Of a stretch of 60,156 nucleotides of DNA, positions 5,377-24,008 are shown in pieces. How positions within the stretch are numbered: the stretch's first letter is position 1; every line of letters begins with the position of its first letter. Source of the DNA: Gemmiger sp. An194 (lineage in GTDB: Bacteria > Bacillota > Clostridia > Oscillospirales > Ruminococcaceae). The notes beneath the pieces were generated by a model, which saw only the letters and a program-made list of their open reading frames with translations, was not told the DNA's origin and ran no database searches. The translations under genes were made by a program, and so were the position numbers. The stretch spans positions 1 through 60,156 of the forward strand of contig NZ_NFKA01000021.1 of the NCBI RefSeq assembly GCF_002160145.1, read 5' to 3'.

Positions 5377-5392
5377 ATTCTTCACCCCTCTC

Positions 5393-7205: not shown

Positions 7206-7223
7206 AGTTAGCAATAACTAACT
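7206..7223. promoter_or_regulatory. Iron-type (DtxR-like) box upstream of the ABC pair
   Basis: AGTTAG-CAATAA-CTAACT is a perfect 6-6-6 palindrome between tetR and the first ABC gene. The half-sites are the same as those of the boxes upstream of the heme operon and close to those upstream of feoA. The resemblance to the DtxR/IdeR consensus (TTAGGTTAG...CTAACCTAA) suggests a DtxR-family repressor. Confidence 0.65.
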
Positions 7224-7244
7224 AATATTCAAAAAAGATAGGGG

Positions 7245-7862
7245 TCATCCCCCCATCAATTTCAGCCATCCACCCGTGTAGAAAGTGCGGAACTGTTCTA
7301 CATCCCGCAGAGCCTGTTCTTTCGGCATATCATGTACGACGATCTCAAAAAGTCCATTGAACATTCCGCTGGCGATGATATGGCAGAGAGACTGACTCAG
7401 TTCCGGAAGAGTTTGCCCCAAACGTCGGAGAACATCCATGTAGCGGAGCGTATACTCCACCTCCACTTCTACCATGTTGTGGACAAAGTGTTCATAACTG
7501 GTTCCCTCTGATCTGCAGAGCAGCAGTTTAACCGGTTCCCGATGCTGACAGATATAATCCACCATCCACCTTACACAGGCTCCAGACGCATTCCCCATGC
7601 AAGTAGCCTGTTCTTCTTCAGGCAACTCGGCAAAAGAGGACTGGGCTTCCATAAACTTTCCCATAAGGGCAACGGCGTGGGGCTCTACAAGGGCGTTGAA
7701 AAGAGCTTCTTTGCTGGAGAAATATCCATAGAAAGCACCAGTGGTTACACCGGCGTTTTTCACAATCTGGCGCAGGGAGGCACCTTGAAAGCCTTTTTCT
7801 AGAAATTCTTGCATAGCAGCCTCCTGGATGCTCTCAAGAGTGGCAGTTGATTTTTCTTCCAT
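7245..7862 (-). CDS. TetR-family transcriptional regulator
   Basis: A 205-residue one-component repressor. The N-terminal helix-turn-helix is typical of the family (FLEKGFQGASLRQI...GVTTGAFYGYFSSKEALFNAL, roughly residues 18-55), followed by an all-helical ligand domain. The start has AAGGAG 8 nt upstream. The gene is first in a minus-strand run with two ABC half-transporters, and a 13-bp palindrome lies between its -10 and its start codon, indicating autoregulation. TetR-family heme sensors (HrtR, FhtR) control heme-efflux ABC transporters in other Firmicutes. The shared operator with the heme operon makes a heme-responsive role plausible but unproven. Confidence 0.88.
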   Translation of the reverse strand: MEEKSTATLESIQEAAMQEFLEKGFQGASLRQIVKNAGVTTGAFYGYFSSKEALFNALVEPHAVALMGKFMEAQSSFAELPEEEQATCMGNASGACVRWMVDYICQHREPVKLLLCRSEGTSYEHFVHNMVEVEVEYTLRYMDVLRRLGQTLPELSQSLCHIIASGMFNGLFEIVVHDMPKEQALRDVEQFRTFYTGGWLKLMGG

Positions 7863-7874
7863 AATATTCTCCTT

Positions 7875-7887
7875 ATAACACCGTTAT
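7875..7887. promoter_or_regulatory. TetR-type operator at the tetR promoter
   Basis: The palindrome ATAAC-ACC-GTTAT lies between the tetR -10 and its start codon. An identical 13-mer (on the other strand) overlaps the promoter facing the heme operon at 8210-8222. The lactococcal heme sensor HrtR recognises a similar ATGACAC-GTGTCAT palindrome; that comparison is from memory. Confidence 0.7.
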
Positions 7888-7898
7888 GTAACACTGCT

Positions 7899-7927
7899 AT
7901 AATACATCTCTTTTAATATGCTGTCAA
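7899..7927 (-). promoter_or_regulatory. Promoter of tetR-ABC operon
   Basis: On the minus strand TTGACA and TATTAT are spaced by 17 bp. The predicted transcription start falls a few bases before the TetR-type operator, so repressor binding would block early elongation or initiation. Confidence 0.85.
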
Positions 7928-8196
7928 GACGACCGAAAACATTCTGCAAGTGCTATGGAAATATTTCTTTTAGATTCAGGTGAACAGTTGGAGATATTGA
8001 TGAAGTAACGAAATGAATTTTGCTTTTCCAGAGAGCCGATTTTGATACGATTGTATGGCATGGTACTTGTCACTATCGACATAAGTGTGATGGAATAATT
8101 TGGTAGTTGTGTAAATTGGACTGTATTTTAAAGAGAAACAAAATTTTTTAATATTGTGGTATTATATCGCTTTATGATAATAAAAGCGACAGAGTG

Positions 8197-8225
8197 TTGA
8201 CATGGGCAAATAACGGTGTTATTCT
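8197..8225 (+). promoter_or_regulatory. Promoter facing the heme operon, with a TetR-type operator in its spacer
   Basis: TTGACA and TATTCT are spaced by 17 bp. The palindrome ATAACGGTGTTAT (8210-8222) occupies the spacer and part of the -10, an ideal repression position, and is the exact complement of the operator at tetR. Downstream the leader carries a weak GC hairpin followed by T5 (about 8249-8275) that could be an attenuator, then two iron-type boxes. Confidence 0.7.
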
Positions 8226-8283
8226 TTAGTCAAATAACAGGATGATTGAGAAAACGGCGTGAGCCGCTTCTTTTTCAGATGAT

Positions 8284-8301
8284 AGTTAGCTTAAACTAAC
8301 T
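8284..8301. promoter_or_regulatory. Iron-type box 1 upstream of heme operon
   Basis: AGTTAG-CTTAAA-CTAACT is a perfect 6-6-6 palindrome about 100 bp upstream of the first gene, with the same half-sites as the box at 7206. Confidence 0.65.
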
Positions 8302-8364
8302 ATTGAAAAAATGTATACGTACAGTGAAACCGTCTGCAAAAGGGGCGGTTTATTTTGAACACAT

Positions 8365-8382
8365 AGTTAGCTAATACTAACT
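8365..8382. promoter_or_regulatory. Iron-type box 2 upstream of heme operon
   Basis: AGTTAG-CTAATA-CTAACT lies 81 bp after box 1 and just before the ribosome binding site of the first gene. Paired boxes suggest tight iron repression, as in other DtxR/Fur-controlled heme operons. Confidence 0.65.
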
Positions 8383-8399
8383 GAAAAGAGGAAATATAT

Positions 8400-8867
8400 A
8401 TGTGGATAAAATGTAGAGCAAAAGTCATTGTGCTTATTGGTGTTGCGGTGATTTTGGCAGCTGCAGCAATATACCAAAACACCAGACCCAAAGAGGTTAC
8501 AAGTTTTGTGCCGGAATTTGAACAGGCGCAGAGCTGGCAAACAACCGAGGAAAGCACTGAAAAAGGGATTGAAATTCCGGGGTACTCTACAATTTCAATT
8601 CCGGCCGATACAAGGAATGTTCAAATAGAACTGACTAACCCGGAAGAAAACGAAGTGTATTTCCAGATCACATTTTTAATCGGAGAAGAGCAAATCTATC
8701 AGTCCAAGCTCATACGTCCGGGGGATCATTTGTATGACATTACGCTGGATAGAGCTTTGGAAGCAGGTGAGTATGAGCTGACGATACAGTACGATACCTT
8801 TTCCATGGATGAGACCTATTCCCCTCGAAATGGGGCAACGGTCAACTGTATTCTGAAGGTAACATGA
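8400..8867 (+). CDS. Small exported or membrane-anchored protein, first gene of heme operon
   Basis: A 155-residue protein with one N-terminal hydrophobic segment (about residues 8-24) and a beta-rich extracellular part. AAAAGAGG lies 8 nt before the ATG. I recognise no family. The C-terminal half (IYQSKLIRPGDHLYDITL..., LEAGEYELTIQYDTFS) resembles small beta-sandwich proteins encoded next to Gram-positive surface adhesins, but this is an impression. It is transcribed with the NEAT genes under iron-type boxes, so a structural or chaperone role at the cell surface in heme uptake is a reasonable guess. Confidence 0.75.
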   Translation: MWIKCRAKVIVLIGVAVILAAAAIYQNTRPKEVTSFVPEFEQAQSWQTTEESTEKGIEIPGYSTISIPADTRNVQIELTNPEENEVYFQITFLIGEEQIYQSKLIRPGDHLYDITLDRALEAGEYELTIQYDTFSMDETYSPRNGATVNCILKVT

Positions 8868-8939
8868 ATATGGGTTTTGCGCGAATGCGCTGAATCATAA
8901 ACGCAAATCCACCATCAAATCAAAAGGAGTGTAGACACA

Positions 8940-9884
8940 ATGAAATTTAACTTCAAACGCCTGGCTAGTTCCGTGCTGGCTATCGGTATGTTGGCCAGCA
9001 TGAGCAGCATCAGTGCATTTGCAGCCGATGCCGGCCTTGCAAATGGGGATTACAAGGGCACAGTACATTTCCACAATGCCTCAAATCCTGCCAACTATAG
9101 CATGTGCGATCCTATTTTTGCGCATGAAGCGGATGTTGTGCTCACGGATGCCAATGCGGAGCTGACTGTTTATGTGGCGTATCCGGTTCCTGCTTTCTCG
9201 GATCAGGGCACTGACGGAACGATTAAAGATGTGACGATCACCATTGGAGAAGATACCTATAACGGCGAATCTGACATCACTACAAAAGCGGTGAAAACAT
9301 TCGATACCACTGGCGCTTTGTTCGGGATCAATGCGGGTGATGAGTTGTCTACCCAGGCGGTGAAATTTACCCTCCCTCGCTCCGCTGTGGACAGCTTTGA
9401 AGAAGGGCTCGACTGCAGTGCGTTCGTGAATGTAGTCATGAATACTACTCAGAATTTCGTGGTTAAAATCACTAACCTTCAGGCCGCCTCTTCTGGGTCT
9501 GATGCAACTGAAACCAGTACTCAGAGCATGGAAATCACCGCACAGGTTGCGGCACAGCCCACCTACAGCGTCACCGTGCCTGCCAGTGTTGCACTGGGCG
9601 AACTGAGCACTGAGCAGGATACTGTGAAGGATATCTCCGTACAGGTTTCCGCAAACAATCTGACCGAGGGCAGTTATATCGAGGTTTCCGCGGAGGCTGA
9701 AGGTAAACTGTCCAGTGAGGGTAATACTCTTTCCTATACCAACAGCTTCGGTACGCAGCAGGCTTCTGCCGAGAGCACTCTGACCGGTCAGATCACCGTG
9801 AAGGCTGCAGATGTTGCGAGTGCGGCGGCAGGCAATTATACCGGTACCGCAAACTTTACCATTAATTACTATGCTGCCGCATAA
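8940..9884 (+). CDS. Secreted NEAT-domain heme-binding protein
   Basis: A 314-residue secreted protein. The signal peptide ends near AFAADA (residue 29). A NEAT-like domain follows (about residues 34-180), with LANGDYKGTVHFHNAS, the ligand-loop sequence NYSMCDPIF and a final strand VNVVMNTTQNFVVKI. The C-terminal domain (about 195-314, YSVTVPASVALGEL ... AAGNYTGTANFTINY) recurs in the next gene. There is no sortase motif or C-terminal membrane segment, so it is probably released or held by protein-protein contacts. NEAT domains bind heme at Gram-positive surfaces; the SM in the loop suggests a Met or Ser/Tyr-type ligand set, undetermined. RBS AAAGGAGTG. Confidence 0.82.
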   Translation: MKFNFKRLASSVLAIGMLASMSSISAFAADAGLANGDYKGTVHFHNASNPANYSMCDPIFAHEADVVLTDANAELTVYVAYPVPAFSDQGTDGTIKDVTITIGEDTYNGESDITTKAVKTFDTTGALFGINAGDELSTQAVKFTLPRSAVDSFEEGLDCSAFVNVVMNTTQNFVVKITNLQAASSGSDATETSTQSMEITAQVAAQPTYSVTVPASVALGELSTEQDTVKDISVQVSANNLTEGSYIEVSAEAEGKLSSEGNTLSYTNSFGTQQASAESTLTGQITVKAADVASAAAGNYTGTANFTINYYAAA

Positions 9885-9968
9885 TATAACAGTTTAATGA
9901 CCTGTGGATACCCGCTGCACAGTCGGCGGGTATCCACCACTTTTATTGTGAAGATGGCGAGGATGCTT

Positions 9969-12900
9969 ATGAAATTGCTACATCGTATAACAGCAATCAT
10001 GTTGGCGGGGCTGATCGCGTGGGGAAACGCTTTGCCGACCTTTGCTGCGGAACAGGACCTGCCTGTTTCCGGTGGCGAAGCCTTGATAATGGAAGAAGAT
10101 GAGTCTTTGGAATCTCAGCGGTCATCATCCGAAACGGTGAAAACGGCGCAAAGCGATGAAAGGGATTCTTTGCAGCAAACGGTTGTACCGGAGCCGACCG
10201 ATTCGAACGAACAACAGGGTGCTGAGGACCTGGCCAAGCAAGAAGTATCTGTGCCGTCTGCATCTGAAAAACAAAATCCGCAAGAGCAGGGTGGGGCTCC
10301 GATACAAACGGAAGAACCTGTCGCAAAAGAATTTAATCCGGATGATAGTGACTCGATTAGTCCCAATGCAGCGGAAGAGCAGTGGGAAATTGTGATGGAA
10401 GGTACGGATTTGAATGCCGTGGTTGCGCCGAAGACCTCTGATTATAGCGTGACGATTCCGGCGGCTACTACCTTAGGGGAACTGAGTCCGGTACACAATA
10501 CCGCTGTGGATTATACAGTATCCCTAAGTGGAGGGAAAGATTTGCAAGGAGGCAGCATCCGGGTAACAGCAGCTGCAACTGCAGTGCTTGCGACAGAGCA
10601 AGGGCAGAAATTGAACAGCTACAACTCCTTGCAGTGGGCTCGTCTGACGGAATACAGTCAGCAATCCACTGGCAGAATCTCCGTGATGGCGGAAGATGTG
10701 GCCGCAGCACAGGAGGGAAATTATACTGGTACCTTGAACTTTGTAATCGAGTATCAGGGGAATGAGCAGGAATACAATACAAGTCAGGAAATTGGCATTG
10801 TTTCCGGTGATACCGTGACCGGTGCGACAATTTACGGATTGGATCAGCTGGCTCATAAGCAAGAGGAGGCTCAAAATACAGGAAAGCATTATGCGTTTTC
10901 TGCATCAGAGCTGGCAAGTGATTCGGAAGAAGCACAGGAACTGGCTGAACGGGCCGGAGTTGATGCAGGCGGAGCAGATTTTCTGGACTTGTCGTTACAA
11001 TATAAGAAGTACAGCAAGGATGGCACCCAGTTGGAGGACAACTGGAACAGGTTTGAATATGGCGATAATAGCGAGGAAGACATTGTACTGGAAGTAAAAC
11101 TAGATTATCCGTTGGAAGCAGACGGGGAGTTACAGGTTTGGCGATTGCATAATGATGTGGTAACAGAGTTTGAAGAAATCACAGAAAACGGTCGGCCGGT
11201 TACGGATTTCAGGGATGGAACATACTATCTGGATCGAGAAAACGACGCGGTTTACATCTATACCAACAAATTCTCGACCTGGATGTTTAAGAAAACGGAA
11301 GGGACAACAGTGACACCCACCCCCATACCTACTGTGGCTCCTACGGCGACACCTAAACCGACGACTGCACCTACCGCCACCCCAGTACCTACTGTTAAGC
11401 CTACTGCTACACCAGGAGGTATGCTGTCGGATGGAAATTATACGGCCAAGGTGTCGATGCGCAATGGCACTAATTTCTCCAGTGAAAGCATGTGTGATCC
11501 GTTGTTCTATAGCTATGCTGATATAGCGGTAGATGGCGATACTGCAAAATTAAAGCTGTATGTAATCGATCCGATTCCCAATTACGCATCGGAAGGCACT
11601 CCGTTGAAGGATGTTGTATTTATTGATAACGCGGGGAAACAGTATTCCGCGACACTGGATACCACCAGCGATCCATATTACCATTTTGATGCGAACAGCG
11701 CGTTTATCAGCAGCGCCGGAAATTACCCCACTACGATCATAACGGTTAATGTACCCACACAGGCGGTGAGCGAATCTGAAAATCAGACGTTGAAATGCCA
11801 GGCTTATGTAGATGCAGTGATGAATACTACGCAGACCTTCTATGTGGTGTTGTCTGACTTTACATCGGGAAGCACTGACTCTGAGCAAACACCGACTCCC
11901 ACTACCACTCCAACACCTACTGCCAGTCCGCTTCCCACTGCCAGCCCGGCACCCACCACCACACCGGTGCCAAATGGTACATTGGAGAATGGCAATTATA
12001 CAGCGAAAGCTTCTATGCGTAATGGCACCAATTTCTCCAGTGAAAGCATGTGTGATCCGCTGTTCTATAATTACGCTGACATAGCGGTGGATGGCGATAC
12101 TGCAAAATTAAAGCTGTATGTAATCGATCCGATTCCCAATTATGCATCGGAAGGTACTCCGCTGAGGGATGTTGTATTTATTGATAACGCGGGGAAACAG
12201 TATTCCGCGACACTGGATACCACCAGCGATCCGTATTACCATTTTGATGCGAACAGCGCGTTTATCAGCAGCGCCGGAAATTATCCTACCACGATCATAA
12301 CAGTCACTGTGCCCACACAGGCGATAACCAACTCTTCAAATCAAACACTGAAGTGTCAGGCATATGTAAATGCGGTAATGAAGAGCACACAGACCTTCTA
12401 TGTGGTACTGTCGGACTTCGCTTCGGGAAGCACTACCTCGGCACAGGTATCTGCAACACCTACCCCGACGCCGAGTGCAACCAGTGGAACGATTGAGGCA
12501 GGCAACGGAAGTTTCTCGACGCAGGCGATCACCAGTGAACAGTTGGAGGATGGAGAATATCGTCTTCCAGTTACGGCCGTTAAAGAAGCCAGCGACGAAG
12601 CCAGCATGATGGCGGATTATATGCTGCCTGATGCGGATATCGTGGTTACAGACGGAAAGGCCACACTGACGATTTATATCCAACATACTGTTGCTGGAAT
12701 CGAAGGGGGCGGACCCAAATATATAAAATATAATGGGATTCAAGCCACGAAGAAAGAAAATGCACTGACCAAAGATGGCATCGACTATGATAGTTTTGCA
12801 TTTGCATTTGACAACAATACGCTGGAATCACCTATGCTGATGACAATGTACATCAATGCAATGAGCATAGAGGTAAAAGCGCGTCTTCTGCTGGATTTCG

Positions 12901-13136
12901 AGTCAATGAAACCGGCCGATGAATATGTTGAAAGCAGCAACAGCAATTCTGGTGCAAATTTGGATGAAAACGAAGCAGGTGGAGCAATTTCTGCAGTGGG
13001 CAATGCAGCAAAGGAGATATCCGAAATTCTTTTCCACAGCAGTGCTGCAATACCGGCTGCGATTTGTATGGTGATCGTTCTTTGTGGTGCCGGGTGCGCA
13101 GCCGGATATGTATGGTATAAGAGGAGAATGAAATGA
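9969..13136 (+). CDS. Large membrane-anchored Shr-like protein with three NEAT domains
   Basis: A 1055-residue surface protein. Order: signal peptide (cleavage near TFAAEQ), an acidic Ser/Gln-rich spacer, a domain shared with the previous gene (SDYSVTIPAATTLGEL ... EGNYTGTLNFVIEY, about 155-260), a unique region ending in FSTWMF, a PT-rich wall spacer, NEAT1 (from about 485), a second PT spacer, NEAT2 (from about 672), NEAT3 (from about 857), a C-terminal membrane helix and a KRRMK tail. NEAT1 and NEAT2 are nearly identical. The start is the ATG after GAGG; upstream in-frame codons would spoil the signal peptide. It should capture host heme or hemoprotein and hand it to the Shp homologue encoded next, as Shr does in streptococci. 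Confidence 0.85.
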   Translation: MKLLHRITAIMLAGLIAWGNALPTFAAEQDLPVSGGEALIMEEDESLESQRSSSETVKTAQSDERDSLQQTVVPEPTDSNEQQGAEDLAKQEVSVPSASEKQNPQEQGGAPIQTEEPVAKEFNPDDSDSISPNAAEEQWEIVMEGTDLNAVVAPKTSDYSVTIPAATTLGELSPVHNTAVDYTVSLSGGKDLQGGSIRVTAAATAVLATEQGQKLNSYNSLQWARLTEYSQQSTGRISVMAEDVAAAQEGNYTGTLNFVIEYQGNEQEYNTSQEIGIVSGDTVTGATIYGLDQLAHKQEEAQNTGKHYAFSASELASDSEEAQELAERAGVDAGGADFLDLSLQYKKYSKDGTQLEDNWNRFEYGDNSEEDIVLEVKLDYPLEADGELQVWRLHNDVVTEFEEITENGRPVTDFRDGTYYLDRENDAVYIYTNKFSTWMFKKTEGTTVTPTPIPTVAPTATPKPTTAPTATPVPTVKPTATPGGMLSDGNYTAKVSMRNGTNFSSESMCDPLFYSYADIAVDGDTAKLKLYVIDPIPNYASEGTPLKDVVFIDNAGKQYSATLDTTSDPYYHFDANSAFISSAGNYPTTIITVNVPTQAVSESENQTLKCQAYVDAVMNTTQTFYVVLSDFTSGSTDSEQTPTPTTTPTPTASPLPTASPAPTTTPVPNGTLENGNYTAKASMRNGTNFSSESMCDPLFYNYADIAVDGDTAKLKLYVIDPIPNYASEGTPLRDVVFIDNAGKQYSATLDTTSDPYYHFDANSAFISSAGNYPTTIITVTVPTQAITNSSNQTLKCQAYVNAVMKSTQTFYVVLSDFASGSTTSAQVSATPTPTPSATSGTIEAGNGSFSTQAITSEQLEDGEYRLPVTAVKEASDEASMMADYMLPDADIVVTDGKATLTIYIQHTVAGIEGGGPKYIKYNGIQATKKENALTKDGIDYDSFAFAFDNNTLESPMLMTMYINAMSIEVKARLLLDFESMKPADEYVESSNSNSGANLDENEAGGAISAVGNAAKEISEILFHSSAAIPAAICMVIVLCGAGCAAGYVWYKRRMK
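11421..12435 (+). repeat. Tandem duplication of a NEAT-domain unit inside the Shr-like gene
   Basis: The units starting near 11421 and 11983 are about 560 bp apart and share long identical DNA stretches, for example around 11464-11500 and 12026-12060, and the segment coding for DNAGKQYSATLDTTSDP. Differences concentrate at the PT-rich linkers and near the 3' ends of the units. This points to a recent unequal-crossover duplication. Confidence 0.8.
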
Positions 13137-14002
13137 AACTGAGCAAACAGGCGAAAAGTATTGTTGGAATTGCCTTGCTGATCTGCCTGCTCGTGACATT
13201 TTCGGTACGAGCCTGGGCAGACAGCCTGACCTTTGAAAGTGGTACAGCACATGGCAGCTATCGCCACCCCGAAACAGGAGTCATTGAGGATTCGGGGGGA
13301 GAAGCCAGCGAGGCGCTGGGGCAATCAATGGTAGGGAGCGTGGTAACTTCTCAGGCAATGCTGGAAACAGATGAGTCGGGGAATCAGTATATATCCCTTC
13401 GATTTGGACTGATGAGTAATATCTCCTCTGTAAACATTCAGGTTCAATCCCCAGGAGATTCCACCTGGACGGATGGAGAAGCTGTATGTACGGCGCAAGG
13501 AGAAGATACAGCAGACTACCGTGTCAAAGTTCCGGGCCGGGATGCGATTCTGCGGGCAGAGTGCTATGTGGAGGCAATGGGACGCAGTGTTATTTTCTAC
13601 ATCACCGTTGATGATTGGGAGGAAGGAAATACCGGCGGATTTGTTCCGATGAGCGAAGAAGATACGCAGCAAGTGAATGAAGGGGGAAGTCAGCTTTTGG
13701 AGGAAGTACAGGGGCTGACAACAGGAGGCAGCGCAGTACTGGCAGCCGGAGGCGAAGAATCTGAAACTGCGGCAGACAATACGAAAACAACAATTTCTCT
13801 GGATGCCAGCGCCTGGTTCACACTATTTGTAGTGGTGTTCGTTGCGGCTTTTCTCGCAGGCGGCTTGCTGCTGGCCGTATATTGGATGCTGGTGCATTAC
13901 AAAAAAAGGCCGGTAGACCCAGAGGAAAACTTTGCAGAACATTCCGCAGAGGATGACTTTGATTCCGTAATTGAATTGGATGATTGGAACAATGAGGAAT
14001 AA
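13133..14002 (+). CDS. shp: Shp-like cell-surface heme-transfer protein
   Basis: A 289-residue membrane-anchored protein with a signal peptide (to about residue 29), an Shp-type heme domain, a linker, a C-terminal membrane helix (about 225-250) and an acidic tail. The domain carries SYRHPETGVIEDSGG, LGQSMV and YVEAMGRSVIFY, matching what I know of streptococcal Shp (YRHPISG...EDSGG, VEPMGREVVFY). Met66 and Met149 correspond to the bis-methionine heme ligands Met66 and Met153 of Shp. The start codon overlaps the stop of the preceding gene (ATGA), implying coupled translation. It should relay heme from the Shr-like protein to the lipoprotein encoded next. Confidence 0.87.
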   Translation: MKLSKQAKSIVGIALLICLLVTFSVRAWADSLTFESGTAHGSYRHPETGVIEDSGGEASEALGQSMVGSVVTSQAMLETDESGNQYISLRFGLMSNISSVNIQVQSPGDSTWTDGEAVCTAQGEDTADYRVKVPGRDAILRAECYVEAMGRSVIFYITVDDWEEGNTGGFVPMSEEDTQQVNEGGSQLLEEVQGLTTGGSAVLAAGGEESETAADNTKTTISLDASAWFTLFVVVFVAAFLAGGLLLAVYWMLVHYKKRPVDPEENFAEHSAEDDFDSVIELDDWNNEE

Positions 14003-14918
14003 GCGAAAATTTTTGCCGGTTATGGCAGCATTGATGACGACGCTCCTTTTTTCGTCCTGCGTGGATCAAAGCGGCGGTTCAGCTGCAGATACAGATAGAA
14101 CGAGCGGTAGAATCGCTGCTACAAGTGTGGCATGCATGGAGATATGTGAGCGGCTTGATTTGGATCTTGTTGGGGTGCCCACAACAAGTTTGACAACTAT
14201 CCCGGAGAGATATGCACAAGCGGTAGAACTGGGGTCACCAATGAGCCCGGACCTGGAGATTCTTAAGCAGCTTTCCCCCTCCTGGGTTCTTAGCCCGTCC
14301 AGTCTGATCAGTGATCTTCAGCCGAAATACGAAGCGGCAGGGTTTCAATATGCCTTCCTGAACCTCAAAAGCGTATTTGGAATGTATAAGTCGATTGAGG
14401 AATTGGGGTTGCTGCTGGATCGTGAGGAGCAGGCGGCAGCGATGATTGAAGAGTTTGAGGAATACTATGCAGAGTATTCCTCAGAACATCAGGATAAAAG
14501 TGCGCCCAGAATATTGATTTTGATGGGGCTACCAGGGTCCTATGTGGTAGCTACGGAGAATTCTTATGTAGGTAGTCTGGTTCAAATGGCCGGCGGTATC
14601 AATGTGTATGCGGGGGAAGATGCCGAGTTTATCAATGTGAATACAGAGGATATGTTAGCCCGGGACCCAGACATTATTCTGCGTACGGCACATGCTCTGC
14701 CGGAATCTGTTATGGAAATGTTTGCGGAAGAATTTGCAACAAATGATATCTGGCAGCATTTTCGCGCTGTGGAAAAAGGGCAGGTGTATGATCTGCCATC
14801 CGGATTGTTTGGCATGAGTGCGACATTTGAATATCCGCAAGCGCTTGAACACCTGGATCAGCTTTTTTATCAGTCTGATTTGGATATAAAGCAGTTAGAA
14901 GGAGGCGAAACAGGATGA
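13992..14918 (+). CDS. Heme ABC transporter substrate-binding lipoprotein (HtsA/IsdE-like)
   Basis: A 308-residue lipoprotein with lipobox LFSSC (Cys23). The periplasmic-binding-protein fold follows the FecB/IsdE type: IAATSVACMEICERLDLDLVG, then ILILMGLPGSYVV and the helical-backbone region. Met84 (GSPMSPD) and His234 (RTAHALP) correspond to the Met/His axial heme ligands of HtsA (79/229), with the same 150-residue spacing. The start at 13992 overlaps shp by 11 bp and gives a proper lipoprotein signal; an in-frame ATG at 13971 is less likely. It accepts heme from the Shp homologue and feeds the permease. Confidence 0.87.
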   Translation: MRNKRKFLPVMAALMTTLLFSSCVDQSGGSAADTDRTSGRIAATSVACMEICERLDLDLVGVPTTSLTTIPERYAQAVELGSPMSPDLEILKQLSPSWVLSPSSLISDLQPKYEAAGFQYAFLNLKSVFGMYKSIEELGLLLDREEQAAAMIEEFEEYYAEYSSEHQDKSAPRILILMGLPGSYVVATENSYVGSLVQMAGGINVYAGEDAEFINVNTEDMLARDPDIILRTAHALPESVMEMFAEEFATNDIWQHFRAVEKGQVYDLPSGLFGMSATFEYPQALEHLDQLFYQSDLDIKQLEGGETG

Positions 14919-15925
14919 GACATACGGTGAAAGTCAGGTCAGCCGGAATGTTTTGTGTCAGTTTTGGAGTACTGGCAACAGCACTGCTGTTCCTGTTTTT
15001 TGCAGCGGTCAATACAGGCAGCATTCACCTGGGAATTGCACAGCTTTGGAATGGTCTGTTTGTGGAATACGACCCTGATGTGGCAGCTGTATATGATCTG
15101 AGATTTCCGCGCATCCTCATTTCACTGATGGCAGGAGCTACTCTGGCGGCAGCGGGAACGCTGTTTCAGGCCGTTTTGCGTAACCCTTTGGCAGATCCGG
15201 GAATTTTGGGTGTTGCCAGCGGGGCAGAGTTTGCGGCAGTTTTGGCAACAGCCTTGGTTCCACAACTTTATAGTTTTGTGCCGGCATTCAGCTTTCTGGG
15301 AGGAATTCTTGCCTTCGTTGTCGTATATCGCCTGGCGTGGACAGGCAGTCTTTCTCCGTTGCGTATTATTTTGCTGGGCGTTGCAGTACAGTCTTTGTTC
15401 GGGGGATTGTCTGCTGCATTTGGTGCAACAAGCAGTGGAACCACATCGACGGTAGCTTCTATTGTCAATGGGAATATCACCATGAAAACCTGGCAGGATG
15501 TTCGGATACTGGCCTTTTTCAGCCTTCTGGGATTGATTCTGGCTATTGTGTGCAGCCGGTGGTGCAATCTACTGGCATTGGAAGATAAGACGGTTCGAGG
15601 TCTGGGAATACAGGTTGACAAAGTTCGGATGTTGGTGAGTCTGATAGCAGTGTTTTTGGTAAGCGGATGCACAGCTATTGTGGGAACGGTGAGCTTTCTG
15701 GGACTGATTGCGCCGCATATTGGGCGAATCATTGTGGGAAGCGATCACCGTAAACTGATTCCCTTCACAATGCTTCTGGGAGCATTTTGCTTTTTGCTGG
15801 CAGATACACTGGGGCGGAGTATTGCTTATCCGTATGAAATCAGTGCATCCATCATTATGTCGGTGGCGGGTGGTATTGCATTCGTAATTCTGCTGCAAAG
15901 GAGTGGTATGATTCATGGAAAATAA
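14915..15925 (+). CDS. Heme ABC transporter permease (FecCD family)
   Basis: A 336-residue polytopic permease of the BtuC/FecCD/HtsB type with about ten helices. Family signatures are visible: RFPRILISLMAGATLAAAGTLFQ, RNPLADPGILGVASGAEFAAVL, and FLGLIAPHIGRIIVGSDHRKLIP near the ATPase-coupling helices. The start overlaps the lipoprotein stop by ATGA. As one permease gene is present, it should act as a homodimer. Confidence 0.92.
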   Translation: MRHTVKVRSAGMFCVSFGVLATALLFLFFAAVNTGSIHLGIAQLWNGLFVEYDPDVAAVYDLRFPRILISLMAGATLAAAGTLFQAVLRNPLADPGILGVASGAEFAAVLATALVPQLYSFVPAFSFLGGILAFVVVYRLAWTGSLSPLRIILLGVAVQSLFGGLSAAFGATSSGTTSTVASIVNGNITMKTWQDVRILAFFSLLGLILAIVCSRWCNLLALEDKTVRGLGIQVDKVRMLVSLIAVFLVSGCTAIVGTVSFLGLIAPHIGRIIVGSDHRKLIPFTMLLGAFCFLLADTLGRSIAYPYEISASIIMSVAGGIAFVILLQRSGMIHGK

Positions 15926-16697
15926 TGATTGCTTTGAAATAAGACATTTGAATTTTTCTTATGGGAATAAGCAGATTTTCCGGGATCTCAATCTCTCGCT
16001 GCCACAGGGGAAAATTACCACAATATTGGGAGGAAATGGCTGTGGAAAATCCACGCTGTTCCAGATTTTGACGAAAAATCTGAAAGCAACCGGTGGAAAA
16101 ATTTTTCTGAATGGGCAGCAACTTGACCAGATCGGTCTGAAGCAGTTTGCACGTAAAGTTGCCATTGTACACCAAAACAATACCGCACCCGGAGATATCC
16201 TTGTGGAGCAGCTGGTGGCTTATGGGAGAATCCCCTTCAGTTATTTAGGCAAAGCCGAATCACGGGAAAATGACGAGAAAATGATTGAACGGGCGATGAA
16301 AATTACAGGGATAACCTCACTTCGAAAAAAAACGGTGTATGCATTGTCTGGCGGTCAAAGGCAGCGCGTATGGATCGCCATGGCACTTGCACAGGGAACC
16401 AAGGTGCTGTTTCTGGATGAACCAACCACCTTTTTGGATGTGCGTTATCAACTGCAAATTCTACGCTTGGTGCGTCAGTTGAATGAAAAACTTGGAATGA
16501 CGATTATTATGGTTCTGCATGATATCAATCAGGCCGTCAACTACAGCGATGAAATTGTGGCGTTGTCTCCACAAGGAGATCTGGTAGCGCAAGGAGTTCC
16601 GGAAGATGTGATATCTAAACCGGTTTTGAAACGAGTCTATGGTGTAGAACTGGAAACAGTAGAAGCGCAGGAGCATCGGATTGTTCTGACGATCTGA
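15915..16697 (+). CDS. Heme ABC transporter ATP-binding protein
   Basis: A 260-residue FepC/HtsC-type ATPase: Walker A GGNGCGKST, Q-loop VHQNN, signature LSGGQRQRVWIAMALAQ, Walker B VLFLDEPTTFLD, switch His in VLHD. It overlaps the end of the permease gene by 11 bp. It completes a three-gene importer (lipoprotein, permease, ATPase). Confidence 0.93.
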   Translation: MENNDCFEIRHLNFSYGNKQIFRDLNLSLPQGKITTILGGNGCGKSTLFQILTKNLKATGGKIFLNGQQLDQIGLKQFARKVAIVHQNNTAPGDILVEQLVAYGRIPFSYLGKAESRENDEKMIERAMKITGITSLRKKTVYALSGGQRQRVWIAMALAQGTKVLFLDEPTTFLDVRYQLQILRLVRQLNEKLGMTIIMVLHDINQAVNYSDEIVALSPQGDLVAQGVPEDVISKPVLKRVYGVELETVEAQEHRIVLTI

Positions 16698-16711
16698 CGA
16701 AAAGGTGATTT

Positions 16712-17095
16712 ATGAGAAAGTGGCTGTACATATCTGTTGGGATCATCGGTTTGGGCCTTGGAGCAGTTGGAGCGGTGATGCCGATGCTGCCAGCGTTTCC
16801 GTTTTTAATGTTGGCGGCCTATTGCTTCGGAAAAAGCTCGGAACGTTTGGATCAATGGTTTCGCAATACAAAGTTGTACAAGGATAATCTTGAGGACTAT
16901 GTCAGTGGACGGGGGATGACGCGGAAAGCCAAAATTCGGGTTGTTATTACGGTCACTGTACTGATGAGTATTGGTTTTCTGATTATGTTTGGAAAGGGGA
17001 TTTTTATTGGGTGTGCTGTGTTGTCCGCAGTCTGGATCTTTCATGTCCTGTATTTCTTCTTTGGAGTGAAAACAATGCCGGAAGAGGCAGAATGA
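16712..17095 (+). CDS. DUF454 (YbaN-like) membrane protein
   Basis: A 127-residue protein with the DUF454 pattern: GIIGLGLGAVGAVMPMLPAFPFLMLAAYCFGKSS, then RLDQWFRN, a basic loop and two more helices. The family's function is unknown, but members often accompany heme or iron transport genes, and here it closes the heme operon 14 bp after the ATPase. A guess is heme handling at the membrane. Confidence 0.85.
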   Translation: MRKWLYISVGIIGLGLGAVGAVMPMLPAFPFLMLAAYCFGKSSERLDQWFRNTKLYKDNLEDYVSGRGMTRKAKIRVVITVTVLMSIGFLIMFGKGIFIGCAVLSAVWIFHVLYFFFGVKTMPEEAE

Positions 17096-17329: not shown

Positions 17330-17373
17330 AAAAGACCGCTGACGTGCAGTTGTACAAAAGTCAGCGGTCTTTT
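17330..17373. terminator. Bidirectional terminator between converging units
   Basis: A perfect 14-bp stem AAAAGACCGCTGAC/GTCAGCGGTCTTTT with a 16-nt loop. T-runs on both strands suit it to end both the heme operon and the converging hydrolase unit. Confidence 0.88.
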
Positions 17374-17525
17374 CTGTCTATAAGTATTCAGTTAAAAACT
17401 CTCTAAATACAGTAGCGAGCGGTTATTCCATATTTCAATGTAAAGGAAAGTCGCTTGTTGAAACTCTGCATACAGGCGCATGCAAACGGGCTGTGGATGG
17501 ACAGAGAAATGTGCAACAATTTTCT

Positions 17526-18389: not shown

Positions 18390-18399
18390 TGTCGCTTCC

Positions 18400-19212: not shown

Positions 19213-19435
19213 GGTTATCCTCCTGTTTAAGTTTTGATGAATTCTGTAATTAATTTGAATATTCATCCGTCCGCGCCAAATGCCCGCCGGTCCGGTCCAT
19301 CACCGCCGTGAATTAGGCGACAGATCAACCCGATTACGCTTTGTAAGCCGGAGAGAAGGTGGTACCGCTCTTGATCGTAAAAGTTACTGTGGAACAGAGC
19401 CAACGAGTGCTGTAAGCATCATAAAGATTTTCCTC

Positions 19436-20032: not shown

Positions 20033-20042
20033 TTCTTACAGT

Positions 20043-20564
20043 TCACCAAAATATATTGAGAAGCAGCCCTAGTCCCGCTTGAGCCACTGCCAGGATGGGA
20101 CACATCAAAAACGGCCATTGAAGAAGGTGCTCCGGCAGAGCGTAATTCCTCATCCAGTTTTTGAACGTATAATCAGGATGTCCCTTCGTACCGGAAATGA
20201 CAAACCGGTGTTTTGCCTTCTTTTGGATCAGCCAGAAATCCAGGAAGAGCAGATCACAGAAATTGACCATCATCCACTGGATATACCCGGTCAGGGTCAG
20301 ATGCCAGAATCCTGTTGTCCCGCCATCCAAAGTACTAATCGCACCATAAATAAGAAGGGGCAGAAGTTCTCCGAAACAGATCCAAAGCCAGTAAGAACGT
20401 TTTTCTGTCGCGGTAGGCGGCTCTTTCGCCGCCTTGATGATGGCGGGGGGATAACAAGGGAACATCAGCCTGGGACAATACAGTGCTGTCAACCCGGCAA
20501 GCAGGTTAAAGTAAGCTGCCATAGCGAACCCATCTAAAAAAGTGCGCATCCAGTTCATATGCAT
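20043..20564 (-). CDS. Multi-pass membrane protein, unknown
   Basis: A 173-residue protein with about four membrane helices and an internal cytoplasmic segment KHRFVISGTKGHPDYTF. The ATG has AAAGGGG upstream. It is followed 10 bp later by a related membrane protein gene, suggesting a two-component membrane complex. Function not recognised. Confidence 0.7.
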   Translation of the reverse strand: MHMNWMRTFLDGFAMAAYFNLLAGLTALYCPRLMFPCYPPAIIKAAKEPPTATEKRSYWLWICFGELLPLLIYGAISTLDGGTTGFWHLTLTGYIQWMMVNFCDLLFLDFWLIQKKAKHRFVISGTKGHPDYTFKNWMRNYALPEHLLQWPFLMCPILAVAQAGLGLLLNIFW

Positions 20565-20778
20565 CCCCTTTCATCTACAAGAGAGTTGTTGCTAAACAGT
20601 TGTGCGTTAAGTACCATCTCTTATCTCGCCGCCCAAGTGTAGCTTATTAATCCGACAGCAAGCATAGAGGAGCAGGGGAGAACTGGAATCATAACGTTCA
20701 CAAGAAGAACCGACATGATGATGTCGATTGGTTCTACTGTTTTGCGGCATAACTCAGCTTCCGATATGCGAAGACCAG

Positions 20779-21003
20779 TTAATCTGTTATATTGTCTGTC
20801 AGGATAAAAAACAATCCGCAAACGAACAGTACAAGAAACAGAATTGCAGGAAGGGATAACCCGTTTTCCAAAATACTTATAATCATTCTTCCCGGCGGTG
20901 TTACCCATGCGTTTGCTGGGGTTTGCATCGCAACCATCATCGTTCCAGTAATTCCAATCGTACCGCTCAGTGTCAAAAATCCGCCTTTAATCAATCTTTT
21001 CAT
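20779..21003 (-). CDS. Small two-helix membrane protein
   Basis: A 74-residue protein with two hydrophobic helices (about 8-30 and 48-68) and a well-placed AAAAGGAG. I recognise no family. The sequence after the stop, down to about 20621, is in another frame hydrophobic and protein-like (IIMSVLLVNVMIPVLP), so the gene may once have been longer and suffered a frameshift; this is uncertain. Confidence 0.55.
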   Translation of the reverse strand: MKRLIKGGFLTLSGTIGITGTMMVAMQTPANAWVTPPGRMIISILENGLSLPAILFLVLFVCGLFFILTDNITD

Positions 21004-21065
21004 AATGGTTTTCTCCTTTTATGGTACTCCTAACGCGAGGAAAGATACTTTTTATACTACTGCTA

Positions 21066-21785
21066 TCATTTCAGTGGATCAGATTCATCTAAAATATGCG
21101 GAGGCCACACAGCAGGGGGCGTTGCACCCCGCTTCATCTTGAAGTCGCACACGTTATCTCCGGTTGCACAGGTTTTTTCCCGGTATAGAGCAACACCAAA
21201 GGCATGGAACATTACATAGTCCAGATTGCACATGTAAGGCAGATACTCCATGTAGTCTCTCGCTTTGCAAAACTCATAGATGGGGCAAACCTGGTTGTGA
21301 TAGATGACGGGGTATTCTTCTGTGGGGGGCATGGTCTGTGTTACAAAGCCTCCTGGATTTCTTGCGGCGTTTTCCGCATTCTTTCTGTCTTTTCGACGCA
21401 AGGCATTGTTGACAAGACCGGGGCAATGGTTGAACACTCCGCCAATCAGCCGGCGCAACAGTCGGGGAACTCTGTCAAAGTACCGCTCATAGAGGGTGGT
21501 GGACAAACGTCCCCAGTCTTGGATGGAGAGACCGTATCGTTTTCCCACAACACCAATGGCAATAAAGAACATACAGCCAGTTAGATTTTTTGTGCCGCTG
21601 CTTCTGTCGCCGCCGATAAAAGGGAAATGCTCCAGCATCTCCTGCTCGTAATACTCCCAAACCTCAGCGAAAATCTGGGGATAGGGCTTTCGAAAAATCT
21701 CCTCCAGTTCAGGCTTGACGAGTTTCAGATAATTGTTCATTTCCCGCTGAAGTTTATTCTTGCTTTTTTGATAATACGCATGCAT
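21066..21785 (-). CDS. ATC-hydrolase-family protein
   Basis: A 239-residue protein resembling the L-2-amino-thiazoline-4-carboxylate hydrolase family. The conserved C-terminal part has CPIYEFCKARDYMEYLPYMCNLDYVMF and CATGDNVCDFKMKR, with the family's cysteine pattern. Clear GGAGG before the ATG. Family members in gut Clostridia are often next to regulators and transport genes, and the true substrate is mostly unknown. An iron-type box lies 50 bp upstream, shared with the divergent flavodoxin gene. Confidence 0.8.
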   Translation of the reverse strand: MHAYYQKSKNKLQREMNNYLKLVKPELEEIFRKPYPQIFAEVWEYYEQEMLEHFPFIGGDRSSGTKNLTGCMFFIAIGVVGKRYGLSIQDWGRLSTTLYERYFDRVPRLLRRLIGGVFNHCPGLVNNALRRKDRKNAENAARNPGGFVTQTMPPTEEYPVIYHNQVCPIYEFCKARDYMEYLPYMCNLDYVMFHAFGVALYREKTCATGDNVCDFKMKRGATPPAVWPPHILDESDPLK

Positions 21786-21833
21786 ATTACCGCCTCCGTA
21801 TCCCTGTATAGTACCGCGACATCTTCAACTGGT

Positions 21834-21851
21834 GGTTGCCCATTGCTAACT
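21834..21851. promoter_or_regulatory. Iron-type box between ATC-hydrolase and flavodoxin genes
   Basis: GGTTGC-CCATTG-CTAACT has the same half-sites as the second feoA box (GGTTGC-N6-CTAACT). It overlaps the -35 side of the flavodoxin promoter, so an iron-loaded repressor would shut flavodoxin off when iron is plentiful. Confidence 0.6.
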
Positions 21852-21865
21852 GATTTTACTATACT
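21836..21865 (+). promoter_or_regulatory. Candidate flavodoxin promoter
   Basis: TTGCCC and TATACT are spaced by 18 bp, with the -35 embedded in the iron-type box. The leader would be about 55 nt. A second -10-like TATGAT abuts the start codon but has no matching -35. Confidence 0.5.
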
Positions 21866-21926
21866 GCATTCTTGCGTCATAATCAATTGCTTTGTTGCTT
21901 TTTATAACTGCTGTATTTGATATGAT

Positions 21927-22349
21927 ATGAGTAAAGTTGCGGTTGTTTATTGGAGCGGTACGGGTAATACCGAAGCAATGGCGATGGCTGTTGCGGAGGG
22001 CGCCAAAAATAAGGGCGCGGAAGTTTCGGTTTTAACCGCTGGTGAATTTTCGGCAGCTCAGATGAGCGCCTTCGATGCTGTTGCGTTCGGATGCCCCTCT
22101 ATGGGAGCAGAACAGCTTGAGGAAAGTGAATTCGAGCCGATGTTTTCTGATTGTGAAGGGGAGATTCGCGGAAAGAATATCGCTCTGTTTGGTTCCTACG
22201 GCTGGGGCGACGGCGAATGGATGCGCAACTGGGAGTCTCGATGCAACGAAGATGGAGCCAATCTGGTGTGCGGCAGCGTGATTTGCAATGAAACTCCGGA
22301 TGATGATGCGCTGTCAGCGTGCCGCGAACTGGGGGCATCCCTTATCTGA
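21927..22349 (+). CDS. Flavodoxin
   Basis: A 140-residue short-chain flavodoxin, an FMN electron carrier that can substitute for ferredoxin. The FMN phosphate loop is VVYWSGTGNTEAMA (residues 6-19), with aromatic and glycine loops FGCPSMGAEQLEE and GSYGWGDGEWM near the isoalloxazine. No Shine-Dalgarno sequence precedes the ATG, unlike almost every neighbour. The iron-type box at its promoter fits the classical switch from ferredoxin to flavodoxin under iron limitation. Confidence 0.93.
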   Translation: MSKVAVVYWSGTGNTEAMAMAVAEGAKNKGAEVSVLTAGEFSAAQMSAFDAVAFGCPSMGAEQLEESEFEPMFSDCEGEIRGKNIALFGSYGWGDGEWMRNWESRCNEDGANLVCGSVICNETPDDDALSACRELGASLI

Positions 22350-22368
22350 GTTTCTTAAACAAATACAG

Positions 22369-22410
22369 TAAAAGAAGTCGGACAGCATTTATGCTGCCCG
22401 ACTTCTTTTA
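22369..22410. terminator. Bidirectional terminator
   Basis: A stem TAAAAGAAGTCGG.CAGCA / TGCTG.CCGACTTCTTTTA around a TTTA loop, between the converging flavodoxin and methyltransferase genes. Confidence 0.9.
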
Positions 22411-22420
22411 CTGCTTCATT

Positions 22421-23110
22421 CTATCGAATGGTACCGGTGAGTTTTATTAAATTCATAAATCGCCCGCGATCTGCTTCAAGCATCAGACGGTCCTCAGCGA
22501 CGTATGGGTTATCACAGGTGAGCCAGTCATCCCACGCGCGAGAAAAACAGTCCATTTCGCCAATGCTGAAGTTTTCAAGGTGTGCTTCAAATTTAGGCTT
22601 CCACCAGTCAATGGAATGCCACATTTGTAATGCGTCGTTATCCCATAGTAGATTCATTTCTTCTGGAATGTTCTCATGGAGTTCTTTTTTTAGGCCGGGA
22701 AAAGCGAGCGCCACTATAGCACCCTTTTTTAAAGTAGGCTTCAGAACCTTTTCGAAGTAGACATCATTGTTTCCGAAATAATGATAGGAATCTATGCCGA
22801 CCACTGCGTCAAAAAAGTTTTCCGCAAAGGGAAGCCTGGTAGCATCAAATTGCAGTGGAACTGTCAGCTGCGCAACGCCCATCTGCTGGAATCTGACATA
22901 ATTGTCGGTGGGAGAAATCCATAGATCTACGGCAAAGACGTCGGTCTCATATTTCTGAGCTAAAAATATGGATGAAAGTCCTCGGCCGCATCCTAAATCC
23001 AGAATTCGCATTCCTTTTTTTATGGGCAAATTGCATGTGAGCTCCTCGGCAAGTGTCCAGGCATTTGGACCCATCATAGTTTCACGTAAAAAGGAATGAG
23101 TGACGCGCAT
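22421..23110 (-). CDS. Class I SAM-dependent methyltransferase
   Basis: A 229-residue methyltransferase with motif I MRILDLGCGRGLSSIFLA, motif II FAVDLW and the post-motif FFDAVVGIDSYHYFG. It follows the DtxR-type regulator by 3 bp and is surely co-transcribed with it. Substrate unknown; some relatives in Clostridia accompany metal regulators. It ends in TAG. Confidence 0.85.
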   Translation of the reverse strand: MRVTHSFLRETMMGPNAWTLAEELTCNLPIKKGMRILDLGCGRGLSSIFLAQKYETDVFAVDLWISPTDNYVRFQQMGVAQLTVPLQFDATRLPFAENFFDAVVGIDSYHYFGNNDVYFEKVLKPTLKKGAIVALAFPGLKKELHENIPEEMNLLWDNDALQMWHSIDWWKPKFEAHLENFSIGEMDCFSRAWDDWLTCDNPYVAEDRLMLEADRGRFMNLIKLTGTIR

Positions 23111-23113
23111 GGG

Positions 23114-23500
23114 CTATTCCTCCACCTTTTTCCCCAAGGATTGCTTCACGTGTTGCTGAATTGCAGAAAAGGATGCTGCACTGATCACATGTTCGATTCG
23201 ACATGCATCTTCCGTTGCTGTTTTTTCATCTACACCTAAGCGCATCAGCATCTCAGAAAGGACGGTATGACGCGTGTACATCGTTTGCGCAATCTCCAGA
23301 CCGGTTTTCGTCAATTTGATTGCACCATCTGAATCCACCAGAACATATCCGTCTTTCTTCAGAATGGACAGAGCTCTGCTGACGCTGGGTTTAGAGTATC
23401 CCAAATGCTCCCCAACATCAATGGCGCGCACAAGGCTTTTTGTTTTTGAGAGAATATAAATCGTCTCCAGATACATTTGACCGGATTCATGAATCGCCAT
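23114..23500 (-). CDS. DtxR/MntR-family metal-dependent repressor
   Basis: A 128-residue regulator with the family's winged helix (YLETIYILSKTKSLVRAIDVGEHLGYSKPSVSRALSIL, about 8-48) and a dimerisation domain with metal-ligand-like residues (HTVLSEMLMRLGVDE, EDACRIEHVIS). There is no SH3 domain, as in MntR and short DtxR types. The start is the ATG with AGGGGGGT 5 nt upstream, not the longer frame. It diverges from feoA, and 6-6-6 palindromes at the feo, flavodoxin, ABC and heme promoters fit this family, making it the best candidate for the local iron repressor. Confidence 0.88.
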   Translation of the reverse strand: MAIHESGQMYLETIYILSKTKSLVRAIDVGEHLGYSKPSVSRALSILKKDGYVLVDSDGAIKLTKTGLEIAQTMYTRHTVLSEMLMRLGVDEKTATEDACRIEHVISAASFSAIQQHVKQSLGKKVEE

Positions 23501-23537
23501 AGGGACCCCCCTGTCTGTGTGTTGATCTAATTCCTTT

Positions 23538-23567
23538 ATTATACCACAAACAGCCATCAAGATTCAA
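23538..23567 (-). promoter_or_regulatory. Promoter of the DtxR-type regulator
   Basis: Minus-strand TTGAAT and TATAAT with an 18-bp spacer, about 40 bp before the start codon. Confidence 0.65.
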
Positions 23568-23578
23568 ATTGATTCATG

Positions 23579-23610
23579 TTGTTTTGATTCGTCGAAATTT
23601 GTTTTGATTT
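23579..23610. repeat. Direct repeats upstream of the regulator promoter
   Basis: TTGTTTTGATT occurs twice with a 20-bp period (two helical turns), at 23579 and 23599, with a further related TTGATTC at about 23569. The position behind the -35 of the regulator and upstream of the feoA -35 fits an activator or a second-regulator site. No known motif matches. Confidence 0.4.
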
Positions 23611-23614
23611 CACC

Positions 23615-23643
23615 TTGACAACGTAAGAAGGATGATGTATTAT
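23615..23643 (+). promoter_or_regulatory. feo operon promoter
   Basis: Consensus TTGACA and TATTAT with a 17-bp spacer. The predicted start site lies directly before the first iron-type box. Confidence 0.88.
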
Positions 23644-23653
23644 TTGGGAGACC

Positions 23654-23671
23654 GGTTAGAAGATGCTAACC
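23654..23671. promoter_or_regulatory. Iron-type box 1 of feoA
   Basis: GGTTAG-AAGATG-CTAACC is a perfect 6-6-6 palindrome at the predicted transcription start. Confidence 0.75.
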
Positions 23672-23688
23672 ATTTTTTATCGTACACT

Positions 23689-23706
23689 GGTTGCTTTATG
23701 CTAACT
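23689..23706. promoter_or_regulatory. Iron-type box 2 of feoA
   Basis: GGTTGC-TTTATG-CTAACT, an imperfect second copy 35 bp after the first. Its half-sites equal those of the box at the flavodoxin promoter. Confidence 0.6.
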
Positions 23707-23731
23707 GATATTTTGATGACAGGTGAGAAGA

Positions 23732-23944
23732 ATGACTTTGAAAGATGCCTTGGAAGGAAAAGAGTATTTCGTCCGGCAAATTAATACGGATGATGAGGAA
23801 TTGAACGCGTTTTTATTTTCTCTTGGGTGCTATGAAGGAGAGCCGATTACGGTGATCTCCCACTTGAAAGGTGGCTGCGTTGTTTCTATTAAAGACGGGC
23901 GCTACAATATCGATAATCAACTGGCCGAGGCAATTCTAATCTGA
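23732..23944 (+). CDS. feoA: FeoA, SH3-like ferrous iron transport accessory protein
   Basis: A 70-residue SH3-fold protein (LFSLGCYEGEPITVISHLKGGCVVSIKDGRYNIDNQLAEAILI), full length for FeoA. It assists FeoB at the cytoplasmic face. The ATG with AGGTGAG 4 nt upstream was preferred to the in-frame GTG nine bases earlier, which would bury the ribosome site. Two iron-type boxes lie upstream. Confidence 0.9.
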   Translation: MTLKDALEGKEYFVRQINTDDEELNAFLFSLGCYEGEPITVISHLKGGCVVSIKDGRYNIDNQLAEAILI

Positions 23945-23990
23945 TATTGCCTCGCCCAGTCCATAGAAGGCATAGGTTGCTGCACATGTC

Positions 23991-24008
23991 GGTTAGCATA
24001 AGACAACC
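23991..24008. promoter_or_regulatory. Possible iron-type box between feoA and feoB
   Basis: GGTTAG-CATAAG-ACAACC, a degenerate 6-6-6 palindrome in the 115-bp feoA-feoB gap. It may mark a separate repressible promoter for feoB or be a chance match. Confidence 0.45.

Follow-up and report, generated by a model that had tools for sequence, protein, structure and literature searches.

Palindromic 6-6-6 sites as probable operators of an iron-linked DtxR-type regulon in the genome of Gemmiger sp. An194

Introduction

The closest described systems are the DtxR and IdeR regulons of Actinobacteria, in which DtxR-family repressors act on iron uptake and heme targets. Their 19-base pair (bp) box has half-sites of the form TTAGS...SCTAA and, as its geometry would appear from PMC524172, a 9-bp spacing between its first and third repeats. 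An IdeR half-site with two CCTAA repeats is bound by one dimer with a dissociation constant (KD) of 78 nM (PMC8464063). Here we describe a stretch of 60,156 nucleotides from Gemmiger sp. An194 (assembly GCF_002160145.1, contig NZ_NFKA01000021.1, positions 1 to 60,156 of the forward strand; hereafter the window), in which 18-bp palindromes made of two 6-base halves around a 6-base spacer (6-6-6) stand before iron and heme uptake genes, close to a gene for a DtxR-family protein, R1 (23114-23500). The IdeR half-site, read as TTAGG-N4-CCTAA, would have the geometry of these palindromes with C in place of G.

With respect to the DtxR and IdeR regulons, the likeness extends to the half-sites and their 9-bp spacing, to the iron uptake and heme targets, and to the aligned Met-Cys-Glu-His ligands of R1, while the differences are that R1 has only two domains and that the sites are isolated and fit a single dimer. 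Allowing as many as 3 mismatches, we found no 19-bp two-dimer DtxR box in the window, and of 169 unique sites only 1 was interlocked with another site at offset 5 (2 mismatches or fewer). SloR of Streptococcus mutans, also of the DtxR family, is described with 18-bp 6-6-6 motifs that lie in tandem and overlap promoters (PMC12096823). The same arrangement is seen here, but SloR responds to manganese and has AATTAA-like half-sites, whereas here the half-sites are GGTTAG-like and the targets are iron uptake genes. Bacillus subtilis MntR is of similar size and is matched by R1 across nearly the whole protein; unlike MntR, R1 carries Met and Cys at the positions of Asp8 and Glu99 (residue roles in PMC4805248). 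While operators of this kind are already known, we found no description of their serving these Clostridia as an iron code in the open-licence literature searched, subscription papers lying outside that search; nor did that literature, passages of PMC12574912 included, yield anything on DtxR regulons of gut Oscillospiraceae or Lachnospiraceae.

We consider it highly probable that the palindromes serve as operators, each for a single dimer of an iron-activated DtxR-family repressor, and mark a genome-wide regulon in which R1 and a paralogue, R3, most likely share the operator. Under iron sufficiency, the metal-loaded dimer would bind RGTTAGC-N4-GCTAACY, often right behind the -10 box, and would block transcription of the feo genes and of those for the uptake of heme and, probably, of a metallophore; under iron shortage the repressor would release them. 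Such DNA binding, metal response and repression, and the division of sites between the paralogues, are what we infer from the sites and their surroundings. The indirect evidence for an iron-linked DtxR-type regulon is strong, and this regulon would be wider than that proposed in an initial sequence-only reading of the window, with at least two candidate regulators.

Results

Loci around relatives of R1 were collected from named genomes (the best 80 of 149 relatives; 866,253 bases) and searched for GTTAG-Nk-CTAAC with spacers of 0-20. A spacer of 6 was found 179 times and each other length 0-4 times, with at least one GTTAG-N6-CTAAC site in 58 of the 80 loci. The 149 unique sites of loci L057-L134 gave the consensus RGTTAGC-N4-GCTAACY and a scoring matrix drawn from other genomes, L055 and L056 being omitted because they hold the same cluster as the window. 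Perfect palindromes of this length might instead be transcription terminators or chance inverted repeats, and one window site, 23654, does appear in a terminator scan (6 pairs, loop of 6, T-rich tail); a spacer fixed at 6 and a sequence that recurs in 149 unique sites, many of them at promoters, make this scarcely credible. Of 176 unique sites, 112 had a sigma-70-like promoter within 120 bp, compared with 14 of 176 positions drawn at random from these loci; for 64 of the promoter matches, the end of the -10 box was 1-10 bp ahead of the operator. This usual layout suggests a repressor that would sit on the transcription start point. Across 61 genomes the strict motif was found 207 times versus 19 for a reversed control, with a site in 47 of the 61, and when the class was sampled more widely a match was present in 110 of 196 genomes (controls 0 to 3 per genome).

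The regulon had been called local by the sequence-only reading, which was not borne out. In the 3.07-megabase genome the strict motif, RGTTAG-N6-CTAACY, occurs 8 times, 4 of them in the window and 4 outside it, versus 0 for the reversed control; 0.73 would be expected with equal base frequencies by our own estimate (Poisson tail about 1e-6). With one mismatch allowed, the count was 14 versus 7 for the control. Strict sites outside the window, listed here together with one-mismatch sites, belong to a second feoA-feoA-feoB operon (L015; a tandem pair, plus another site ahead of feoB), to the space between a DUF3793 gene and a gene for an AraC-type regulator (L016; three sites), and to one place upstream of tRNA-Ala that is without a clear protein target (L017). 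Sites with one mismatch also precede a FecCD-FecCD-ABC importer operon (L020) and, on contig C2, another pair of ATP-binding cassette (ABC) genes (L018). A match at C1:211400 lies inside a 641-amino acid (aa) LytB-S1 reading frame and was treated as chance.

In the window, the seven 18-mers listed in that reading are all present at 7206, 8284, 8365, 21834, 23654, 23689 and 23991, and all are noncoding by gene calls, noncoding DNA amounting to 4003 of the first 30402 bases. They had been described as matching, which is true of four: 7206, 8284 and 8365 (AGTTAG-N6-CTAACT) and 23654 (GGTTAG-N6-CTAACC) are perfect palindromes, while 21834 and 23689 (GGTTGC-N6-CTAACT) and 23991 (GGTTAG-N6-ACAACC) are degenerate and weak by matrix score. 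The perfect four scored 24.2, 23.5, 23.3 and 22.9, and the weak sites 11.0 (21834), 9.1 (23991) and 7.0 (23689). In 20 simulated windows (first-order Markov) a mean of 1.05 matches scored at least 6 and 0.25 at least 10, the best reaching 16.6. The weak sites are supported by their retention in aligned promoters of related genomes. A further window match, at 27163 (score 7.1), is inside an AraC gene and was taken as chance.

Three of the sites belong to the feo genes. The first feoA operator (23654..23671) is located 10 bp behind the feoA promoter, TTGACA-N17-TATTAT (23615-23643), and its palindrome is also present in genome G001 and in loci L057, L058 and L072. The second (23689..23706), with the degenerate half GGTTGC, has an aligned counterpart in these and in genome G004, and is followed by feoA (23723..23944, plus strand; Pfam FeoA). 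A degenerate operator at 23991..24008 lies about 50 bp 5' of feoB (24060..26066, plus strand, ATG at 24060; Pfam FeoB_N, Gate and FeoB_C); it takes the form GGTTAGC-N4-GCAACC in L057, L058 and L072, and a one-mismatch site occupies the equivalent place before feoB in the second feo operon (L015:7590). Fur is a classic regulator of iron uptake genes and the genome has two FUR-family genes, but control by a Fur-family protein, with the palindromes serving as something else, is highly improbable: none of the seven sites has a Fur-box-like (7-1-7) match, and the window holds 5 such matches at 3 mismatches versus a shuffle mean of 2.9.

The heme operon (8400..17095, plus strand) is preceded by two perfect palindromes, one (8284..8301) downstream of TTGACA-N17-TATTCT at 8197-8225 and one (8365..8382) 17 bp ahead of the first gene. 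It encodes a small protein and a 314-aa protein, both without a Pfam match, followed by a NEAT protein, a Shp-like heme protein that matches 2q7a, a cell surface heme-binding protein, and Peripla_BP_2, FecCD, ABC ATPase and DUF454 proteins. The claim that the palindromes are operator-like and stand before iron and heme uptake operons is supported by these arrangements, with the DtxR-family gene divergently adjoining two of the sites.

The remaining perfect palindrome (7206..7223) lies 19 bp 5' of the start codon of an ABC pair on the minus strand (5393..7186 and 3634..5454), and is identical in G004. A gene for a TetR-family regulator (7245..7862, minus strand) is directly upstream in the same direction and has its own promoter-like site, between it and the palindrome lies a terminator-like hairpin, and the promoter scan found no good sigma-70-like promoter directly before 7206; control of the pair by this adjacent repressor in place of the operator might therefore be considered. 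We regard it as improbable, given a perfect and conserved operator so near the start codon and similar distances before ABC genes in 23 loci (median 17 bp). Both TetR and an operator-binding regulator may act on the pair.

Both subunits have the exporter fold, as do the YbtPQ and IrtAB importers. Among the best 60 of 200 matches, the single half-transporter closest to the 5393-7186 subunit was 6p6i chain A (314 bits), which we take to be YbtP, the partner of YbtQ, followed by IrtA (290) and MsbA (260). For the 3634-5454 subunit, YbtQ (299.5 bits) came before Sav1866 (264) among the best 60 of 208. Two-in-one multidrug proteins outscore these half-transporters because their two halves are summed. 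The likeness to YbtPQ and IrtAB is thus one of nearest sequence, subunit by subunit, and ferric-siderophore import by the window pair is putative; import of an iron-metallophore would fit the operator. For the first subunit of the C2 pair (L018:8252-9997), no YbtPQ or IrtAB chain was among the best 60 of 130 matches. Before that pair, three CTAAC half-sites are spaced at 20 bp (L018:8158-8215), only the first of which belongs to a full palindrome.

Site 21834 (21834..21851; degenerate half GGTTGC) had been placed before a pair formed by a flavodoxin gene and an ATC-hydrolase-like gene. It fits the latter (21066..21785, minus strand) better than the former, lying just behind its minus-strand promoter, TTGATT-N17-TATAGT, whose -10 box ends at 21858, and is retained in G001 and G004 although the flanks differ. 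This gene is the first of an operator-led minus-strand run (17526-21785) that also encodes membrane proteins, an LCM-type methyltransferase and an alpha/beta hydrolase. Whether the site serves the divergent flavodoxin gene (21927..22349, plus strand) is uncertain: that gene is not in the stretch aligned beside the site in G001 and G004, but relatives of this flavodoxin are encoded next to DUF3793 and behind operators, both in sister clusters and on contig C48, which speaks for a flavodoxin as such.

Reading frames starting within 250 bp of 237 sites with a spacer of 6 (window, L015-L020, L026-L134) were clustered, and the clusters, those of FeoB and FecCD named by eye, comprised the repressor itself in 55 loci, FeoA in 47, DUF3793 in 27, ABC in 23, methyltransferase in 20, FeoB in 18, FecCD in 9 and ZIP in 6, counts in which feo genes are favoured because the loci were chosen around R1 relatives. 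DUF3793 (L016:6268-6822 in this genome) is a family with conserved cysteines, found at the iron operator in those 27 loci and beside a flavodoxin gene in sister clusters. Its structural model (10 sequences, mean predicted local distance difference test score 71) had no PDB match better than E 0.06, and we therefore assign it no function; no relevant open-licence literature was found on DUF3793 or on feo islands. Upstream of tRNA-Ala, at L017:8213-8390 (G000:C2:23212-23390), a strict operator is followed by a noncoding block in which two stretches read ATCCTTG; both are kept in four genomes, the operator core showing no base difference in the four halves read. The block is a possible iron-controlled small RNA. 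The predicted fold at about C2:23230-23390 was no more stable than shuffles (z -0.33) and no Rfam family reached its gathering score there, so that neither supported the RNA candidate; the conserved parts are the operator and the downstream block.

The DtxR gene proposed at 23114-23500 is real (minus strand; Pfam Fe_dep_repress and Fe_dep_repr_C above cut-off). R1 has 128 aa, a TTG-start version reaching 23560, and matches DtxR (E 1.3e-13) and MntR structures; it ends after the second domain and lacks the third, SH3-like domain of DtxR and IdeR proper. Its Met9, Cys100, Glu103 and His104 align with DtxR Met10, Cys102, Glu105 and His106, a set of iron-type ligands (PMC4805248), and R1 is predicted to be iron-selective. 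It is a candidate regulator as had been suggested, though not the sole one, since the genome encodes three DtxR-family proteins besides the two of the FUR family. R2 (26448..26825, plus strand, 125 aa) and R3 (contig C2, L018 about 5064-5441), the core paralogue with Asp-Cys-Glu-His, both carry Asp at the first ligand position, plus Cys. The recognition helix starts with SKPSVS in R1 and R3 and with SRPTAL in R2.

Met-Cys-Glu-His is found in 85 of 86 records best matching R1 (four records are duplicates), a share that is biased because one retrieval peptide, QMYLETIY, contains that Met. Of the 85 Met-type genes, 55 (52 of 81 without the duplicates) have GTTAG-N6-CTAAC in the 400 bp upstream, where mean density predicts 0.08 per gene, compared with 0 of 6 for R3 and its five orthologues in G001-G005. 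R1 thus appears to be autoregulated. In the sister genome G002, the single DtxR-family match is the R3 orthologue, and the operator before the ABC pair is kept, as are those of four orthologous loci (feoAAB, DUF3793/AraC, FecCD and C2:23212); R3 therefore very likely reads the same operator. R3 might even be the main or sole reader, with R1 a passenger or active elsewhere, as both G002 and the operator found before that ABC pair in each of G001-G005 would allow. The close upstream operator at 52 of 81 Met-type loci and its absence from R3 and its five orthologues make this unlikely, though well short of negligible, and the most likely arrangement is that R1 and R3 read one operator. Over the 61 genomes, sites occurred in 43 of 51 with a DtxR protein and in 4 of 10 without (p = 0.007).

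R2 stands apart. At window positions 26320-26460, its promoter lacks 49 bp that are found in G001 and G004, including the -10 box and the first operator (by eye), and the second operator has decayed; the protein is 100% identical to its G001 and G004 counterparts over the aligned part. R2 may be silent in this strain. R1-type repressors 74% and 64% identical were also found in metagenome-assembled genomes labelled Candidatus Avitreponema and Chloroflexi (L082 and L104), where either transfer or contamination could account for them.

With respect to the history of the cluster, window positions 126-21903 are 97.5-98.7% identical to G004 and positions 22418-28279 (R1, feo, R2) 95.3%, compared with 89.6-92.3% for the one core region compared, that around R3. 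The pair with G001 shows no sign of exchange, since the cluster (91-94%) is not above the R3 region (90-94%). An R1 orthologue is lacking in G002, G003 and G005, whose best matches share 46-49% identity, and in G006 nothing matched R1. Sister iron clusters (L059-L070), about 91-95% identical over kilobases, occur across genera and orders of gut Clostridia, among them [Clostridium] asparagiforme (Lachnospirales, complete chromosome), Fournierella massiliensis (Oscillospiraceae) and Oscillospiraceae bacterium CE91-St43. This distribution suggests that iron clusters may have been exchanged between species. A plasmid or phage origin was considered and rejected: megablast of window 3600-28000 returned no phage and a single plasmid record, 79.5% identical across 17% of the query, and no plasmid matched window 16700-30400 or L060:1-6424. 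Downstream of the iron cluster, window 44311-54048 encodes a phage-type integrase as well as HsdR-like and HsdM-like type I restriction proteins.

Discussion

Several observations weigh against a genome-wide regulon read by DtxR-family repressors. The counts over the 80 loci are not independent, as many loci are close relatives, and the promoter contrast (112 versus 14) is in part one between intergenic and coding DNA, since the random positions were drawn once from whole loci including coding DNA. With 3 mismatches allowed, the window shows no excess of the motif (19 matches versus a shuffle mean of 14.2, with 12 of 100 shuffles reaching 19; a second such count gave 11 versus 13.4), so that the regulon claim rests on the strict form. 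Sites 21834, 23991 and 23689 are not significant on score alone, their scores falling within the range of the simulated windows, and the strong feoA operator at 23654 has one base changed in G004 (half GATTAG). A strict upstream site is missing in 30 of the 85 Met-type genes, nor is such proximity confined to the Met type, given that 9 Asp-type records (R2 relatives and 43-44% R3 relatives) also have one. Among the 48 genomes at least 90% complete, the association with DtxR proteins was 36 of 43 versus 3 of 5 (p = 0.23). Strict sites occur without a DtxR-family match in G006, G043 and G053 (5-6 sites) and in G013 (2, the control also 2), and no strict site was found in 8 of the 51 genomes that encode a DtxR protein.

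Beyond the regulon itself, a broader reading is possible, which we put forward tentatively. Iron-uptake clusters, accompanied by an iron-selective, Met-type DtxR of their own and by 6-6-6 operators that the core Asp-type DtxR of the host reads, may pass from one family or order of gut Clostridia to another, paralogues of different metal preference sharing one operator; the regulon would then include DUF3793, the ATC-hydrolase/methyltransferase operon and perhaps a small RNA. Since the operators of an incoming cluster would be written in a code already read by the core DtxR of the host, the cluster would at once come under host iron control.

Few accounts seem to exist of how iron is controlled in gut Oscillospiraceae and Lachnospiraceae. 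With a precise operator rule, iron-controlled genes could be predicted in these commensals, and the rule points to iron genes that are as yet uncharacterised. The findings also suggest that exchanged iron clusters come pre-wired to the iron sensor of the host.

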